From positions 1 to 51,696 of the forward strand of contig JAFSOA010000011.1 in NCBI GenBank assembly GCA_017447265.1: 51,696 bases of DNA, in the 5' to 3' direction. The position numbers and the translations under genes were made by a program. This document shows, piece after piece, positions 3,410-37,313 of the stretch. Numbering within the stretch: position 1 is the first letter of the stretch; the number at the start of each line of letters is the position of its first letter. The notes beneath the pieces were generated by a model. It did not search any database and was not told where the DNA came from. It saw only the letters and a program-made list of their open reading frames with translations. Source of the DNA: Bacteroidales bacterium (GTDB lineage Bacteria; Bacteroidota; Bacteroidia; Bacteroidales; UBA932).

Positions 3410-4549
3410 TCAGATAATCTCCCCTGCCCAAAGGGCTTTGAAGAAGTCGGTCACGTAATACAGGTCAATGTCTCCCGACCGTCTGGTCAAGAAGTCTCTG
3501 GAGACAATGATCTGCTTGGCATCCGGGTGCTCTTCCACGAATTTCTTCAAGCCTTTCTTGTGCTCGGTTTCCACGTGGTCCGTCGATTTGATCTCAATGG
3601 CAACGCGGGCATCGCCGATCACGGCGTCAACTTCATCGTTGGTGTAGGTGTGCCAGTAGGTCAGTTCCTCCTCACTGCCGGAGTATCCCAAGTAAGCACG
3701 GATTTCCTGCATCACGATGCTTTCAAAGGCGTGCCCATATTCAGGTGTTCCTGGCATCAGGTGAAAACGGTGCAGCAAGTAGTTGGGAATGCCGACATCG
3801 AAGAAATAGAACTTGGAAGTCTGGTACAGTTTGCGTTTGATCACCTTCCGGTATGGTTTGACCTCGAATCCCAGAAGGGTATCGTAGAGAATCTTGAAAT
3901 AGGCCTTGGCCGTATTGACAGACACGCCGCAATCGGAGGCGACATTGTCGTAATTCAAGATCTCCGTGTTGGTGACAGCTGCCCCTTCGAGGAAGCGCTC
4001 AAAGGTATCAATATTCTGGACCAGGGCTTCCTCTTCGATTTCCTCTTTGAGGTACAAGTTCACATAGTTCTTGAGACGCACCCTTGCATCCTTCACATCA
4101 TAATGGCGCGGAATCATGCCGTTCTGGATGGCCCGCCCAAAGTCGTAATGAGGAATCTCAGCATAGACAAGCGGATACAGATGTTCCTCGTTTGCACGCC
4201 CACCCAGTTGGTTGACACCGGCCTTCTTGATCTTCCTGGCACTGGAGCCGCTAAGGATGAAATGAAGGTCATTCTCGACCATCAACTTGTGAACGACATC
4301 CAGCAGCTCCGGAAGTTTCTGGATCTCATCTACAATGACCAGGGTCTCGGGCGGATATTTCACCAGCATCTCGTAGAACTCCATGGTACGACGCCTGAAT
4401 CGTTTTCTCGTATCAGGATCAAGAAGGTCAACGTATATGGCCTGTGGGAATCGCTCCCTCAGAAGCGTCGATTTCCCAACCTGACGGCCGCCAAACAAGA
4501 ACATGCCCTCATCCAGGCGGTTCTCTATGTCGAATACTCTATGATACAT
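3410..4549 (-). CDS. AAA ATPase with DUF4143 domain
   Basis: A 379-residue protein of the AAA_14/DUF4143 class, common and variable in Bacteroidota genomes and of unknown biological role. The Walker A motif is GGRQVGKST (about residues 20-28), Walker B is LVIVDEIQKLPEL (D74/E75), and the sensor segment is HFILSGSSARKIK. The C-terminal DUF4143 part carries E306-V-D308 and E319-I-K321, the D...ExK pattern of a restriction-endonuclease-like fold. I chose the ATG at 4549; an in-frame GTG at 4573 would add eight residues. A -7 box (complement 4611-4618) and an inverted repeat (4577-4601) lie upstream. It sits between an IS remnant and an HTH fragment, so it is probably part of a transferred patch. 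Confidence 0.85.
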   Translation of the reverse strand: MYHRVFDIENRLDEGMFLFGGRQVGKSTLLRERFPQAIYVDLLDPDTRKRFRRRTMEFYEMLVKYPPETLVIVDEIQKLPELLDVVHKLMVENDLHFILSGSSARKIKKAGVNQLGGRANEEHLYPLVYAEIPHYDFGRAIQNGMIPRHYDVKDARVRLKNYVNLYLKEEIEEEALVQNIDTFERFLEGAAVTNTEILNYDNVASDCGVSVNTAKAYFKILYDTLLGFEVKPYRKVIKRKLYQTSKFYFFDVGIPNYLLHRFHLMPGTPEYGHAFESIVMQEIRAYLGYSGSEEELTYWHTYTNDEVDAVIGDARVAIEIKSTDHVETEHKKGLKKFVEEHPDAKQIIVSRDFLTRRSGDIDLYYVTDFFKALWAGEII

Positions 4550-31926: not shown

Positions 31927-32512
31927 TCCACAGTCTACGGTAGAAATCCGCTTTCCGCTCGAGGGCGAGCGGATAGGCGCGGGATGTGGAAGGCATCCGC
32001 CAGAATGTCAGGGTGCGGCCGGCCGCCTCGGCCGCCGTCAGAGGCTCGCCGATTTCGATTTCGACGGATCCGCCGACAGGCGGTTCGGCGCAGCCGAAGG
32101 TTTCGACGATGACGTCGGTAGCTTTCTGGCAGGTAGTAACCAGCGTCCGACAGGCAGGGATGCGGGCCAGCAGGGCCGGAATATCGGTCGGCGTCACCAC
32201 TTCGAGGAATTTGTCGGAAGCGTTGTCCTTGAGGCGCCGGACTTCACAGGCCGTATCGTAGAGCGCCAGCCCCTTCTCACGGCAGAAAGCCTCCACCTGT
32301 GCCTGGTCAAATCGCTTTTGGCCAGGGACGGCGAAATGATCCTTGTCTCCGAAAAACAACAAACCCATCACCCGCCAGAAATCGTTGTTCCAGTTCGGAT
32401 AATAAAACGGCATCGACCACCGCTTCGGCTGCGGCGGAAAACTGCCCAGGAAAAGAATGCGGGCATTCTCCGGCAGGAAGGGTTCGAAAGGATGTCGTTC
32501 AGTTTCCATCAT
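31907..32512 (-). CDS. Uracil-DNA glycosylase superfamily protein
   Basis: 201 residues. The N-terminus has NARILFLGSFPPQPKRWSMPFYYPNWNNDFW, which matches motif 1 of bacteroidete UDG-like proteins related to the Mug/TDG branch. GLALYDTACEVRRLKDNASD follows, and a C-terminal WRMPSTSRAYPLALERK replaces the usual HPSPL loop. It is probably a base-excision repair glycosylase or relative; the active centre differs from classical Ung, so activity is uncertain. The start overlaps the stop of the upstream membrane gene by 14 nt. Confidence 0.75.
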   Translation of the reverse strand: MMETERHPFEPFLPENARILFLGSFPPQPKRWSMPFYYPNWNNDFWRVMGLLFFGDKDHFAVPGQKRFDQAQVEAFCREKGLALYDTACEVRRLKDNASDKFLEVVTPTDIPALLARIPACRTLVTTCQKATDVIVETFGCAEPPVGGSVEIEIGEPLTAAEAAGRTLTFWRMPSTSRAYPLALERKADFYRRLWTRGTSR

Positions 32513-32993
32513 CTGTTGTATCTGGCTGCGGCGGCAGCGGCTGCGACCGCCGCTCCCGCCACCATCGAATGAGAAAACGGATGCCGGCCGAAAGCAGGCC
32601 CGGCCCCAGGCCGCAGTAGAACCAGGCGAAAAAAGACGTCGGAATCCCAGGGATATGCTTCAGCGTGATGCCCAGTCCGATCATGAAGGCGATAATCAGA
32701 TACCCTTTCAGACTGAAGGTCTTGAACACCGAGGTTCTCGCTTCCGGCATGGCCAGGATCCGCGCCGAGTATTTGCCGACAACTCCGGTAAACATCCAGT
32801 AGAATCCCGCAAACACCAGCAGCGACAGCGGCACCATCCAACCCCAAGCCGCCGTTCCATTCGACGCAACCGCTTCGCCCACCGCTCCCAGCCGCATATA
32901 GCTGGCGACGCCCGTCACCAGAATCTTCGTCCCGATGGCCGTCCACAACACCCCGTTCACTGCCAGCAGTCCTTTTGTCGGTATCTTGCACAT
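32499..32993 (-). CDS. 164-residue membrane protein, unknown
   Basis: Four likely membrane helices (about residues 8-33, 50-73, 94-112 and 118-140) and an Arg-rich, Pro-rich tail (RWWRERRSQPLPPQ). No family is recognised. The -7-like box TATCTTTA at complement 33000-33007 is 6 nt before the ATG. It overlaps the UDG-family gene by 14 nt, suggesting a two-gene operon. The structured repeat A begins 43 nt upstream of its start. Confidence 0.65.
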   Translation of the reverse strand: MCKIPTKGLLAVNGVLWTAIGTKILVTGVASYMRLGAVGEAVASNGTAAWGWMVPLSLLVFAGFYWMFTGVVGKYSARILAMPEARTSVFKTFSLKGYLIIAFMIGLGITLKHIPGIPTSFFAWFYCGLGPGLLSAGIRFLIRWWRERRSQPLPPQPDTTDDGN

Positions 32994-32999
32994 AATACG

Positions 33000-33007
33000 T
33001 AAAGATA
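33000..33007 (-). promoter_or_regulatory. -7-like box of the membrane/UDG operon
   Basis: TATCTTTA differs from TAnnTTTG only at the last base and is positioned like the other boxes, 6 nt before the ATG at 32993. Confidence 0.45.
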
Positions 33008-33035
33008 CTCATAATTACGCACCCCGCCAAATTTT

Positions 33036-33148
33036 CCGCTGCAACGGACGCAATTGACTGACAGCCGATTACGCAAGTTGATCCCCCTCAAAAACAAGGG
33101 GATCAACCCGTGCAATTCACTGATTTACTGATGCGTACATTGCAGCGG
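33036..33148. repeat. 113-bp nested inverted repeat A (REP-like)
   Basis: Outer arms CCGCTGCAA (33036-33044) and TTGCAGCGG (33140-33148) enclose an inner 10-bp perfect stem GTTGATCCCC (33077-33086) / GGGGATCAAC (33098-33107). The element is 113 bp and 89/113 identical without gaps to repeat B at 34595-34707, in the same orientation. The conserved 3' part CTGATTTACT.ATGCGTACATTGCAGCG is the best preserved. The right end abuts a T-run, so the outer stem could also act as a terminator. It lies between a reverse-strand membrane gene and the metallophosphoesterase. Confidence 0.85.
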
Positions 33149-33157
33149 TTTTTTTCG

Positions 33158-33165
33158 TATTTTTG
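33158..33165 (+). promoter_or_regulatory. -7 promoter box of the metallophosphoesterase
   Basis: TATTTTTG fits the consensus and ends 5 nt before the ATG at 33171, 10 nt after the end of repeat A, so the repeat occupies the upstream promoter region. Confidence 0.5.
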
Positions 33166-33170
33166 TCATT

Positions 33171-34562
33171 ATGAAACGGAGAGTCTTTATCAAGACCTCG
33201 GCGCTGCTGGCAGCGGCGGCCGGGTCGGGCGAGCTGATGAAGGCGGCTGCCATGCCAGCGGCAGATTCAGAATTGGCAGATGCCGATCAGAACCCGGCGG
33301 AGCCGGAGGAGCCGGGCGAAGGCCCGCTCCTCGTGTCGGCGCCGATGCTACAGAATTTTGCCGACACGTCTGTCGGCGTCGCTTTCGCCGTGAGCGCCCT
33401 GGCCAACGGTTATGTCCTGATCGGCCAAAAGCCGGACCTGTCGGACGCCAGGAAGTTCCTCTGCGGGGGCTACCGCGTCACGGACATCGACGACCGGGTC
33501 ATCCGGGTCCGGATTACCGGCCTGAAACCTGCCACACGCTACTACTACCGGATCGGTGCCGACCGGATCCGGTACGACGGCGGCTACCGGATGAAAATCC
33601 TCGGCAACGAAGAAGATTCCCATATCTATCGTTTCACCACGGCTGGCGCGAAGGCGAAAGCCCACTTCTGCGTCATCAACGACACCCACGCCCGCTGGGA
33701 GCCGTTCGGTCGGATCATCGAAAAAGTCGCAGAGCTGGCGCCGGCCTGTGTGATCTGGAACGGCGATGCCAGCAATGTGGAAGAGACCGTCGAAGACCAG
33801 ATCCGCATCTTCCTGAAGCCGGAGATCGAACGGAATGACTATGCCAGCCAGATCCCCTATCTCTTCTCCCCCGGCAACCACGATAGCCGGGGAATGGCCA
33901 ACCGGCATCTCGAACGGGTCTGGATGTTCCGCCAGCCGGAAGAGCGGCTGCCCCGCGACTGGGATCTCGGCCGCAATTTCGCTGTCCGTCTCGGCGACAT
34001 GGCCTTGATCGGCCTTGACACCGCGGAAGACAAACTCGACACCAATCCGATCTTTGCAGGCCTGTTCACGAGCGGGCCGTACCGCGAAGCGCAGACGGAA
34101 TGGCTGCGCGACGCCCTCGCCCGGGAGGAGATCCGCACGGCCCCCTATCTGGTGGCCTTCTGCCACATCCCGCTGTTCGACGACAATCCCCGGCACAATC
34201 CGGGAGACGTGGCGCCGGCCGACAAAGACCCGCAATATAGCGCGGACTTTGCCTATTGGCAGCGCACCTGCGCCCGGCTGTGGACCCCGCTATTGGAAGA
34301 AGCCGGCTGTCAGCTGATCATCACCGCCCACCAGCACCGCTACCGCTACGACGCCCCGACGGCCGACCGCCCCTGGGCCCAGATCGTCGGCGGCGGGCCC
34401 GATCTGGGATTCACCGGTTCCGGAGACAACCGCAAGGAAGACCCCGGCAAGTTCCCCACCGTCGTCGAAGGCCTCGTCCACCGCGGCCACCTGGAAATCC
34501 GCGTCCACAACCTCGTCACCGGCACCATCCAGGACCGCTTCACCTTCCCGCCCCGCCGCTAA
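33171..34562 (+). CDS. Exported purple-acid-phosphatase-like metallophosphoesterase
   Basis: 463 residues. The N-terminus MKRRVFIKTSALLAAAAGSG has the Tat-like twin Arg. A low-complexity Asp/Pro/Glu linker (about 33-52) precedes a fibronectin-III-like domain (about 55-157). The phosphoesterase core has D171-T-H173 (motif I), N197-G-D199, G235-N-H-D238, FCHIPLF (about 343-349) and TAHQHRY (about 384-390, A replacing the usual G). Dinuclear-metal ligands are present, so hydrolysis of phosphomonoesters outside the cytoplasm is expected. The gene is flanked by both 113-bp repeats, as if carried as one cassette. Confidence 0.85.
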   Translation: MKRRVFIKTSALLAAAAGSGELMKAAAMPAADSELADADQNPAEPEEPGEGPLLVSAPMLQNFADTSVGVAFAVSALANGYVLIGQKPDLSDARKFLCGGYRVTDIDDRVIRVRITGLKPATRYYYRIGADRIRYDGGYRMKILGNEEDSHIYRFTTAGAKAKAHFCVINDTHARWEPFGRIIEKVAELAPACVIWNGDASNVEETVEDQIRIFLKPEIERNDYASQIPYLFSPGNHDSRGMANRHLERVWMFRQPEERLPRDWDLGRNFAVRLGDMALIGLDTAEDKLDTNPIFAGLFTSGPYREAQTEWLRDALAREEIRTAPYLVAFCHIPLFDDNPRHNPGDVAPADKDPQYSADFAYWQRTCARLWTPLLEEAGCQLIITAHQHRYRYDAPTADRPWAQIVGGGPDLGFTGSGDNRKEDPGKFPTVVEGLVHRGHLEIRVHNLVTGTIQDRFTFPPRR

Positions 34563-34594
34563 TGCGGCTGTCCGGCCGGCCCTTCCTCTTTTTT

Positions 34595-34707
34595 GCGCTG
34601 CAACGGACACATTTGGCTGTCAGGTAATTACACAAGTTGATCCCCCCGAAAGCCGAGGGGATCAACTTATGTAAGAGCCTGATTTACTAATGCGTACATT
34701 GCAGCGC
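34595..34707. repeat. 113-bp nested inverted repeat B (REP-like)
   Basis: Same length and orientation as repeat A. Outer arms GCGCTGCAA (34595-34603) and TTGCAGCGC (34699-34707): the first and last bases changed together from C-G in A to G-C here. Inner stem GTTGATCCCC (34636-34645) / GGGGATCAAC (34657-34666) extends to 12 bp with AA/TT and continues through TTACA/TGTAA after one mismatch. It stands between the metallophosphoesterase stop and the transposase gene that starts 121 nt further on. Confidence 0.85.
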
Positions 34708-34828: not shown

Positions 34829-35746
34829 ATGAGGGGAAGGAATAAACCGATTGTCAGGGCGAACGCCATCCACCACGTCTATCAGAATACCCGAAACGGA
34901 TATCTCATTTTCTATTCCGTCAAAGATTACCTGATTCTTTTTTCTGTCATTTCCGTATTCGCCCGCCGATATGGCGTTCAAATCCTGGGCATCAGCCTGA
35001 TGCCCGATCATATCCATCTTCTGGTGTACGTCAGAGACGTTGATAGTTTCCGGGCCTTCATGCGGGAGTACACAAAAGTATTCACCTACATATGGAACCG
35101 CCATTATCGCCGGACCGGACCTATGTTCAACACACCGTTCGGCTGTGCGCCGAAATTGGCGCACAAAAGAATCCGGTCGGCCATTGCCTATGTCTACAAC
35201 AATCCCGTAGAAGGACGCCTTGCATCCCAGGTAGAAGAAGAACGTTGGAACTTTCTGGCGTATGCCAACAAAAAGTCTCCGTTTTCGGAAAAACTCCGCA
35301 TCGATAGGGCCCGATGGGAACTCCGGAAAGCGTTCAATACCGTAAAGGCTTGCAGAAAGGAGGGAAGATGGCTCGATTATACAGAAATCGACAAGGCCAC
35401 GAAAAACTTGTCACTCCGGGAAATCCAGCAGTTCATCGACTACGTGATCCGGAAATACAACTGTATCGATTATCCCGCCACGACGTCCTACTACGAATCA
35501 TACGGAAAGATGGTGATCGCCCTCAACGCCTATACCGGCAGTGAGTATGACATTGAGGAGGACACTTTCGGCAAAGACTACCGTTGCTACAAAACGATGA
35601 TCCGGGAATTGTGCTTCGCCAAAGGCTACGGCTCGATGGAACGGGTACTGAATCTGCCCGAAGCCGACCGGCGGCGCTTGGGGCAAATGCTGATGCGGGA
35701 AACGGGGGCAAACGAGAAGGAAGTCGCCAAACTTCTCAGACTATGA
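34829..35746 (+). CDS. REP-associated tyrosine transposase (RAYT, Y1_Tnp/IS200-like)
   Basis: 305 residues. The Y1 HUH domain is N-terminal (about 8-140): the metal-binding HUH motif H61-I-H63 in SLMPDHIHLLVYV and the presumed nucleophile Y121 in AYVYNNPVEGRL. Such proteins cut single-stranded REP hairpins. The extra C-terminal half (about 150-305) is helical, with a segment near the end (RRRLGQMLMRETGANEKEVAKLLRL) like a DNA-binding helix-turn-helix. It has no IS ends of its own, typical of domesticated RAYTs. The 113-bp repeats just upstream are the likely substrates. It ends 6 nt before the convergent tyrosine phosphatase gene. Confidence 0.85.
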   Translation: MRGRNKPIVRANAIHHVYQNTRNGYLIFYSVKDYLILFSVISVFARRYGVQILGISLMPDHIHLLVYVRDVDSFRAFMREYTKVFTYIWNRHYRRTGPMFNTPFGCAPKLAHKRIRSAIAYVYNNPVEGRLASQVEEERWNFLAYANKKSPFSEKLRIDRARWELRKAFNTVKACRKEGRWLDYTEIDKATKNLSLREIQQFIDYVIRKYNCIDYPATTSYYESYGKMVIALNAYTGSEYDIEEDTFGKDYRCYKTMIRELCFAKGYGSMERVLNLPEADRRRLGQMLMRETGANEKEVAKLLRL

Positions 35747-35752
35747 GGGCGG

Positions 35753-36214
35753 CTATGAATAGTGCGGCAGCGCTTTCAACAGGGCGCGGCAGCCGAGAAG
35801 GATGTCGTTATAGGCCGTCACGAAATCACGCGTGTACCAGGGATCGGCCACGTTGCGGTGCTCACCGGCATAGTCAAGCAGCAGGTGAATCTTGTCTTCC
35901 GGATCGCCGCCGGCGATACGGCGGATACCGCGGATGTTGTCTTCATCCATGGCAAGGATCAGATCATATTTCTCATAATCAGACGCTTTCATCTGACGGG
36001 CGATCCTTTGTCCGTCAAAGACAACCTTGTTCCTCCGAAGCATGGCGGCGGCCTGCGGATAGATCGGATTGCCCCATTCTTCCTCGCTGACGGCGGCCGA
36101 GGCAATCTCGAATTCATCGGAACATCCGGCCTCGGCGACCAGCTGTTTCATGATGGCTTCGGCCATCGGGCTCCTGCAAATATTGCCGTGGCAAATGAAT
36201 AAAACTTTCTTCAT
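35753..36214 (-). CDS. Low-molecular-weight protein-tyrosine phosphatase
   Basis: 153 residues. The catalytic loop C8-HGNICR14-S matches CX5R(S), with His instead of a small residue at the second position. The general acid is D124 in ADPWYTRDF. Removes phosphate from phosphotyrosine, in bacteria often on capsule-kinase or arginine/tyrosine-phosphorylated targets. No kinase is nearby. The promoter box at complement 36220-36227 is 5 nt before the ATG. The length is normal. Confidence 0.93.
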   Translation of the reverse strand: MKKVLFICHGNICRSPMAEAIMKQLVAEAGCSDEFEIASAAVSEEEWGNPIYPQAAAMLRRNKVVFDGQRIARQMKASDYEKYDLILAMDEDNIRGIRRIAGGDPEDKIHLLLDYAGEHRNVADPWYTRDFVTAYNDILLGCRALLKALPHYS

Positions 36215-36219
36215 GGCAG

Positions 36220-36227
36220 CAAAGATA
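36220..36227 (-). promoter_or_regulatory. -7 promoter box of the tyrosine phosphatase
   Basis: TATCTTTG on the reverse strand, 5 nt before the ATG at 36214. Confidence 0.6.
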
Positions 36228-36266
36228 ACGGAAATCCACTTATTGTTCCAAAGAATTCTTAGGCTG

Positions 36267-37313
36267 CTATTCCGCTATTTTGTGAATAAAACCCGAAAAT
36301 TCTTCTGACCGTGATTCGAGCAGCCCATGCGTGGCGTTTTTCATAACGAACAGTCGCTTGTCAGGTGCATTCACCCGTTGGAAATAATCACTGGCAAGCT
36401 CAAAATTGGTCTGGTAATCCATGTCGCCATCGATATTGTAGAAAGGCATCGCATAATCATATCTGCCGAAAAGGGTCATATTCCTGAAGCCCTCTGAATC
36501 CAGGAAGACCAAATAAGGTTCAAAACTATCATCTGCATGGCCCAGAACTGTCACGAAATCCTTCAATGAATAGTTTGGGTTAAAGAGTGCCGTGAAGAAA
36601 ACGTTGAAGTCGGTCCCGTCTTTCATCATGTCATAACCATAGCGCTCCAGCATCTCCTGCCGATGCTTCAGGGCCTCGAATCCCGCATCCCGGCTGGAAT
36701 ACCACTGCTCGACGATCGCCCTGCCTTCCGGGTCGCCTTCCGACCACGCCAGCGCGGCTTCGTGAAGACGTTTTTCATTTTCATCATAATCGATAAACTG
36801 CCCCGTTCCGATAAAGGCCTCGTAATAGCCGGGGTACGCAAGCGACAGGTTGGCACCGAAATAGGAACCCCAGGAATGTCCAAGCAAGGTGATCTTGTCC
36901 ACCTTCAAATGATCACGCAGGAACTCGGTCATCGCCACTCCGTCCGCCATCATCTTGTCGGCAGTGATGGTCTCCCGTCGTGACTTGTCATAACTCTTGC
37001 CACATCCGCGCTGATCCCAGGTAACCACTGTGTAAACATCACTCCATTTTCTTGTGTAGGCATAGTCAAGCGTGCTGGTCGAACTTCCGGGCCCACCATG
37101 AAGATACAGGAGAACGGGGTTGTCAAGGCTCTTCCCGTAGATATTGATCCACTGTTTTGAACCATTGATATCCACGAAGAGGGATTCATTGATGCCCCCG
37201 TCCGGCGTCCGCCGATTGATGTTCCTTCCGATCCATCTCGAAATAAAGAATGTCACCATCAGAACAGCAAGGATGACACCGACCCATTTCAATATCCGTA
37301 AGAATGTTTTCAT
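36267..37313 (-). CDS. Membrane-anchored alpha/beta hydrolase, proline-iminopeptidase-like
   Basis: 348 residues from the ATG at 37313. One membrane helix (about 9-25), then an alpha/beta hydrolase: oxyanion HGGPG (72-76), DQRGCGKS (100-107), nucleophile S147 in GHSWGS, and the catalytic His in NATHGLLE near residue 330. The HGGPG and DQRG motifs point to the S33 aminopeptidase/prolyl iminopeptidase group; the true substrate is unknown. GC content looks lower than in the neighbouring ComEC gene. The promoter is at complement 37344-37351. Confidence 0.87.
   Translation of the reverse strand: MKTFLRILKWVGVILAVLMVTFFISRWIGRNINRRTPDGGINESLFVDINGSKQWINIYGKSLDNPVLLYLHGGPGSSTSTLDYAYTRKWSDVYTVVTWDQRGCGKSYDKSRRETITADKMMADGVAMTEFLRDHLKVDKITLLGHSWGSYFGANLSLAYPGYYEAFIGTGQFIDYDENEKRLHEAALAWSEGDPEGRAIVEQWYSSRDAGFEALKHRQEMLERYGYDMMKDGTDFNVFFTALFNPNYSLKDFVTVLGHADDSFEPYLVFLDSEGFRNMTLFGRYDYAMPFYNIDGDMDYQTNFELASDYFQRVNAPDKRLFVMKNATHGLLESRSEEFSGFIHKIAE

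Follow-up and report, generated by a model that had tools for sequence, protein, structure and literature searches.

A family of 111-bp two-stem palindromes associated with RAYT-type transposase genes in a Bacteroidales genus

How REPs spread is unsettled because they are short and hard to trace. The window analysed here, the whole 51,696-nt stretch of contig JAFSOA010000011.1 (positions 1 to 51,696; assembly GCA_017447265.1) from a Bacteroidales bacterium, holds two similar palindromic repeats, the second of them upstream of a gene for a RAYT-type transposase-like protein. This arrangement raises the question of what the repeats are and whether the neighbouring gene moves them. Our reading, to which we give a probability of roughly 0.7, is that they are RAYT-mobilised, REP-like, non-autonomous single-stranded DNA elements, 111 bp long, with the adjacent RAYT as their cognate partner.

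Two palindromic repeats beside a RAYT gene

The preliminary description of this locus had reported two blocks of 113 bp in the same orientation (33036-33148 and 34595-34707), identical at 89 of 113 positions, and a gapless alignment agrees at about 79% identity. Their equal length stands, but the true copied unit is 111 bp, at 33037..33147 (+ strand, copy 1) and 34596..34706 (+ strand, copy 2); the outermost base on each side of the 113-bp blocks differs between the copies and is probably target-derived. Mean column identity of the pair is 89% (two rows), and identity over 116 nt is 80%. When folded as single-stranded DNA, copy 1 gave z-scores of -5.6 and -5.9 and copy 2 of -8.1 and -9.9 for the two strands, each better than all 200 shuffles, which bears out the earlier remark that the repeats are too structured for chance.

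Copy 1 is a dispersed copy between two divergent ORFs, and only copy 2 is the 5′ flank of the RAYT gene (34829..35746, + strand, 305 aa), whose start lies 121 bp past it, as had been described. The copy 1 site is also filled in two related loci (L040 and L041), and a third (L042) has no counterpart of the stretch from ~32512 to 34589, which includes copy 1 and a phosphoesterase gene. On the other side of the RAYT is a gene for a low-molecular-weight protein tyrosine phosphatase (35753..36214, - strand; PF01451, E 1.8e-34). In all three relatives the RAYT and a homologue of this phosphatase are enclosed by two elements, with the phosphatase between the RAYT and the 3′ element. That 3′ partner is missing from the window, where its approximate site (36215..36400, no strand assigned) is empty and homology to L040 stops near 36172. 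A link of the phosphatase to the RAYT/element system would be conjectural.

A dispersed family of constant length

A DNA search of the window's own genome (2.13 Mb, 79% complete) recovered four copies in full and one more split into two partial matches, all confirmed by alignment, and these five were used to build a covariance model (R2). At E ≤ 0.1 the model returned 24 rows from this genome, which collapse to 13 places, six strong (E < 1e-18) and seven diverged, and two of the diverged places touch the ends of RAYT paralogues on contigs C8 and C7. These counts dispose of the possibility, raised in the preliminary description, that the genome contains no copies beyond the two in the window.

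R2 matched 24 of 40 genomes of the genus (14/25, 4/4 and 6/11 in three batches) and none of 16 genomes from other genera of the order, searched with stricter filters. The best match was below 1e-18 in 18 of the 24; the remaining six (G009, G012, G015, G021, G047 and G050) have a weak best match that is probably to a second, B-type palindrome treated below. Copy number among congeners ranges from 0 to at least 51 places, the maximum being found in G003 (98% complete), where at least 102 rows correspond to at least 51 places; this is a lower bound with 150 of 211 candidates scored, and one of the places is short and weak. Forty-six G003 copies were parsed, leaving aside the places at C10:241087, C3:192665, C4:14114, C1:147028 and C3:123123, and 45 of them are exactly 111 bp long and one 112 bp. 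By a crude ORF call only 5 of 45 fall inside an ORF. The dispersed, mostly extragenic copies that characterise classical REPs are thus found in G003, and the own genome has only its six strong ones. The covariance-model scan of the genome and its relatives proposed in the preliminary description thus does show a dispersed, mostly extragenic family linked with the neighbouring RAYT, and in one relative it reaches tens of copies. Two A+T-rich diverged copies in G000 (C8:89053-89159 and C9:22203-22309) have equal model scores on different contigs and are perhaps a single duplicated segment.

The copied unit and its probable insertion site

The G003 copies most alike form pairs that are identical at 108, 103, 102 and 101 of 111 positions and lie in unrelated flanks, with no similarity running on past short T and A runs at their borders. 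Since near-identical copies sit in unrelated surroundings, the 111 bp are what is copied. Across 45 G003 copies, T makes up 84-96% of the left flank at positions -5 to -2 and A makes up 76-96% of the right flank at +2 to +5, and no target duplication was seen in these flanks. In the window, the right flank of copy 2 is CAGGAAGG, and that of copy 1 is T-rich, unlike the A-rich pattern of the family.

These flanks suggest insertion at the dyad of a TTTTN|N′AAAA site without duplication, a target step that is read from the flanking bases. The runs might instead belong to the element, or arise after insertion through hairpin-templated repair, and then reflect no preference for a target; this alternative concerns the target step alone. 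Templated repair is known to act on long hairpins, and the T and A runs are nearly as conserved as the element ends. The bases at ±1, however, vary freely between copies and pair within a copy (64% against 39% after re-pairing, z 3.7), and flank complementarity wanes after about position 6, as a short dyadic target would give. We regard this alternative as doubtful, though it deserves to be kept in mind, and continue with insertion at a dyadic target.

Hairpin structure

The element is one long palindrome with two stems, as had been described, but the stem lengths given then (9 bp outer, 10 bp inner) do not hold, for the family model has a 16-pair outer stem and a 20-pair inner stem separated by an internal loop. 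The loop carries CTGA..TCAG motifs on both arms, and the inner stem is bounded by TTA and TAA. In 47 oriented copies, the two from the window and 45 from G003, the 36 pairs of the two helices are paired in 92.6% of 1692 cells, compared with 36-44% when slid, a control that leans towards the structure because the structure was derived from the same sequences. Shuffles gave 90.5%, and none of 500 was as high as the observed figure.

Evidence from covariation is confined to part of the hairpin. Cells changed on both sides number 72 against 41.8 in shuffles (0/500 as many) and fall mostly at inner-stem columns 41-42/70-71. Neither the count of doubly changed pairs (9, with 7.5 in shuffles and 97/500 of these as high) nor that of pair types (24, with 23.1 in shuffles and 190/500 as high) exceeded shuffles, the outer stem showed zero compensatory changes among the 47 copies, and the stretches between the stems paired no better than shuffles. 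TTGACTGACAG and CTGATTGACTGA motifs in those stretches make the element directional, and the copies were oriented by them. The outer stem also has an ACAT variant, which played no part in orienting the copies and sits nearly always on the right.

MITEs of a DDE transposon would likewise be constant in length, with near-perfect terminal inverted repeats and A+T-rich insertion sites; on that view the outer stems are the terminal inverted repeats and the RAYT is adjacent by chance. Such an element should share its ends with a longer transposon, yet in the own genome, which is 79% complete, each of the 11 exact end-motif matches belongs to a 111-bp element or to one of two diverged kin. No longer transposon with the same ends was found there, which agrees with the earlier statement that the repeats are not IS ends. 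The 45 G003 copies lack a visible target duplication, the inner-stem core is conserved as strongly as the ends, and most RAYTs of the genus are flanked by palindromes whose types track the RAYT tree, as detailed below. We therefore rejected the DDE MITE, which we hold to be very improbable, on the grounds of the unshared end motif in the own genome and the missing duplication, and retain RAYT-mobilised elements as the preferred reading.

RAYT genes and their palindromes

The window RAYT carries the motifs DHIH and YVYNNP, the latter with Y121. It scores above the Pfam cut-off for Y1_Tnp (PF01797, E 1.9e-6) and reaches 42 bits with NCBIfam REP_Tyr_transpos, under the cut-off of 80. Residues H61, H63, Y121 and N125 are invariant in 40 sequences, the pattern of an HUH nuclease with a single Tyr, and profile matches to solved transposases are at best E 0.0018 (2xm3) and 0.08 for TnpArep (4er8). 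The C-terminal ~160 aa (residues about 145-305) are conserved in RAYTs of the genus and have no Pfam match. The A4 model detects relatives in 25 of the 40 genomes of the genus at E ≤ 1e-10 and in 23 at E ≤ 1e-50, as up to four mutually diverged genes per genome. At E ≤ 1e-30 the A7 model found only one positive among 295 genomes sampled from the order, namely the own genome. One further Bacteroidales record, L043, has a distant RAYT of 41% identity with palindromes on both sides (2850-2997 and 3853-4001), the downstream one beginning at the gene's stop.

Of 48 distinct RAYTs, 44 have a long palindrome (score ≥8) on one side or both, the exceptions being L084, L087, L096 and L153. By side, 35/47 have one in the 5′ flank and 31/47 in the 3′ flank. 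Control windows contain one in 6 of 146 cases, one of them with a score of 26 that perhaps marks a genuine dispersed copy. For this comparison the highest score among up to three windows was taken for each RAYT gene, and each control is a single window. Palindromes scoring ≥9 are present on both sides of 27 of the 49 loci for which both flanks were examined. In 17 of the 27 the 5′ palindrome finds its best match in the 3′ one, and in 25 the 3′ one ranks among its best three; the pairs are direct in 16 cases, inverted in 5 and undecided in 6, with all eight A-clade pairs direct.

The palindromes fall into types that follow the genes. On the RAYT tree the end-type changes seven times (minimum 6, shuffled mean 17.4, 0/200 as low), a result obtained on a quick tree with 30 of 46 rows labelled by end motif, and one that near-copies favour. 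The 11 A-type rows, those of the window's own type, form one side of a branch with full SH-aLRT support. Outer stems in the B clade include CGTGGCA, CTGGAGG, TTGGCGGC, GTGCAC and others, and the inner stems differ too. A and B nonetheless share a plan: outer stem, CTGAT..ATCAG, TTA, inner stem, TAA, CTGAT..ATCAG, outer stem. Among B arms, 59/98 contain CTGA or TCAG where shuffles give 14.2, and among A arms 35/38 do where shuffles give 7.2, counted in palindromes that score ≥9 and measure 98-140 nt, with the two of L043 excluded from both types. A GT[AG]G near the inner stem was found in only 3 of 140 arms and at most 4 of 47 A-type copies share one at any single position, so that no GTAG guide is apparent. 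Cognate palindromes also occur elsewhere in the genome, with dispersed copies demonstrated for the A type only.

Taken by itself, co-occurrence across the 40 genomes is strong. RAYT (E ≤ 1e-50) and element are both present in 22 genomes and both absent from 15; only the RAYT occurs in one (G005, a gene fragment at a contig end) and only the element in two, G010 and G017 (Fisher 5e-8, or 4e-6 when G019 and G049, with matches near 1e-12, are counted as RAYT-bearing). For A-clade RAYTs and strong A-type matches the corresponding counts are 11 with both, 0 with the RAYT only, 7 with the element only and 22 with neither (1.4e-5). On a prfA tree of 30 genomes there are four independent pairs, two agreeing, none opposing and two without difference (p 0.5), and for the A clade one agreeing, none opposing and three without difference (p 1). 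The co-occurrence is therefore a single-clade pattern of no independent weight, and the argument draws on the palindromes beside the RAYTs and on the RAYT tree. Strong A-type matches without a detected A-clade RAYT occur in 7 of 18 genomes (G006, G010, G014, G017, G046, G054 and G055), and in G010 and G017 no RAYT of any kind was detected; these genomes may be incomplete, or the elements may have outlived the gene. On this evidence, both the 111-bp unit and the partnership of RAYTs with palindromes are well supported.

A possible route of mobilisation

From the partnership, the unit and its flanks we infer RAYT binding, cleavage, a single-stranded intermediate, strand transfer and present activity. 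A single strand of the element would fold into one long hairpin and be bound by the RAYT, an HUH protein with a single Tyr, through the loop motifs and stem sequence. The RAYT would nick at the element ends, and the strand would be joined at the dyad of a short TTTTN|N′AAAA site exposed as single-stranded DNA, with no target duplication, until replication fixes the new copy. As both the ends and the target are near-palindromic, insertion in either orientation should be possible.

A broader proposal, which we put forward tentatively and at rather less than even odds, is that these are a distinct kind of single-stranded DNA element. The whole element would be a 111-nt two-stem hairpin whose two strands are equivalent substrates; it would insert at the exact TTTTN|N′AAAA dyad in either orientation and occasionally be inverted in place. 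Each palindrome family would obey its own RAYT with an uncharacterised C-terminal domain, and several such pairs would co-exist and diversify in one genus. The system offers a long fixed-length unit with sharp ends, recognisable insertion sites and several RAYT-specific palindrome types in one genus. Given congeners with such different numbers of places (0 to at least 51), insertion, inversion and loss should be traceable in natural populations, and matched and mismatched RAYT/substrate pairs are on offer for binding and nicking tests.

Relation to known systems

IS200/IS605 elements have hairpin ends and make no target duplication. By sequence, the RAYTs share their HUH/Y1 nuclease fold, but they are few and diverged here (no genome has more than four) and do not form families of near-identical copies. 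RAYT groups were reportedly defined by Bertels et al. in 2017.

Classical REPs of E. coli, Stenotrophomonas and Marinomonas are 20-40 bp long with a GTAG foot (PMC8266576). The elements here resemble them in being dispersed palindromes with a foldable single strand and a nearby HUH/Tyr gene, and differ from their short hairpin and GTAG foot in having two stems, 111 bp and no GTAG. The candidate assignment to REPs made in the preliminary description accordingly fails for REPs in the classical sense, given the length of the unit and the absence of a GT[AG]G foot.

Published work already describes RAYT-like genes accompanied by long or atypical palindromes (PMC3733652, PMC6006769), so the kind is known. 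TIRtrons, or TIRYTs, are RAYT-like genes between long TIRs, which can be double palindromes and can have further genomic copies (Di Nocera et al. 2013, PMC3733652). The present system is like them in its RAYT-like tyrosine transposase gene, its long inverted repeats unrelated to GTAG REPs and its genomic copies. Compared by description, it differs from TIRtrons in having a unit of constant length (111 bp), a genome with at least 51 places, dyadic TTTTN|N′AAAA flanks, and palindrome types that track the RAYT tree within one genus. The GGGGWSAS motif given there for TIRYTs does not match GGGGATCA here.

TnpA-Y1 subclass 2.6 (Bertels group 5) is found mostly in Bacteroidetes, and its genes have atypical flanking structures that recur at other genomic places (Quentin et al. 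2018, PMC6006769). Bacteroidetes hosts, atypical flanks without GT[AG]G and genomic copies are common to both, but the printed signature of the subclass (NH[LIV]H, YIH[QN]NP, ~179 aa) differs from the DHIH, YVYNNP and 305 aa of the window protein. We found no report of the 111-bp family, its unit or its insertion site in the literature searched, which lay mostly outside subscription papers and was seen in part.

Stability of sites and possible host use

G043 and G054 are 97.4% identical over 5.2 kb, and each of the 12 element places in G054 has at least one flank that matches an element site in G043 (several by one flank only), so that sites look stable. Conversely, 20 of 33 G043 element places were not found among the G054 loci examined. 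Sixteen of these flank pairs were joined and searched in G054, G000 and G052, omitting two on small contigs, one near a RAYT and one partial, and no intact empty junction was recovered; G054 was matched only by scattered pieces, so the regions seem absent from its assembly, and at one of the 16 sites both G000 and G052 carry an element. At the prfA locus, G010 reads CCTTTTTC|GAATCGG where G003 bears an element, a candidate empty site that is suggestive only, the locus being too strongly diverged for it to be firm. At the 3′ end of the acyl-CoA dehydrogenase gene, the species compared yielded no clean empty/filled pair.

Shared sites such as those of G054 and G043, the mostly extragenic positions (5 of 45 inside crudely called ORFs) and the recurrence of A- or B-type palindromes at the acyl-CoA dehydrogenase 3′ end in different species would be expected if selection kept the palindromes as structures useful to the host, whether by forming transcript 3′ ends, stabilising mRNA or binding proteins; the RAYT would then be a domesticated protein that binds them and does not move them. 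A role at transcript ends would predict an excess in convergent gaps. Such gaps hold 17 of 45 copies at first count, and the excess is not significant, either against other gaps (16/34 versus 12/41, p 0.15) or against the 11/45 of the window (p 0.055). Copy numbers from 0 to at least 51 among congeners also speak against host use, as do the position of copy 1 between divergent ORFs and the order of the flanking runs, with T 5′ and A 3′, the reverse of an intrinsic terminator. This explanation is unlikely in our judgement, and mobilisation by the cognate RAYT remains preferred.

Two narrower candidates were rejected: an intrinsic terminator, for which the run order is wrong, and a structured RNA of a known family, as an Rfam scan with the element gave no family near its cut-off. 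The former accords with the earlier view that the repeats are not known terminators.

In G043 the element at the prfA locus (L186) is inverted in place relative to G000 (L184) and G054 (L185), with the immediate flanks unchanged. It is 97% identical when inverted and 78% when compared directly, and G000 and G054 agree with each other; an assembly error in G043 may be responsible.

The 3′ end of the acyl-CoA dehydrogenase gene (L214-L229), which bears A-type palindromes in some species and B-type in others, is either a hot spot or a selected position. In G043 (L227) and G054 (L228), the left end of the element (CGCTGCAACGGACG..) recurs there in a degenerate tandem array beside the element.
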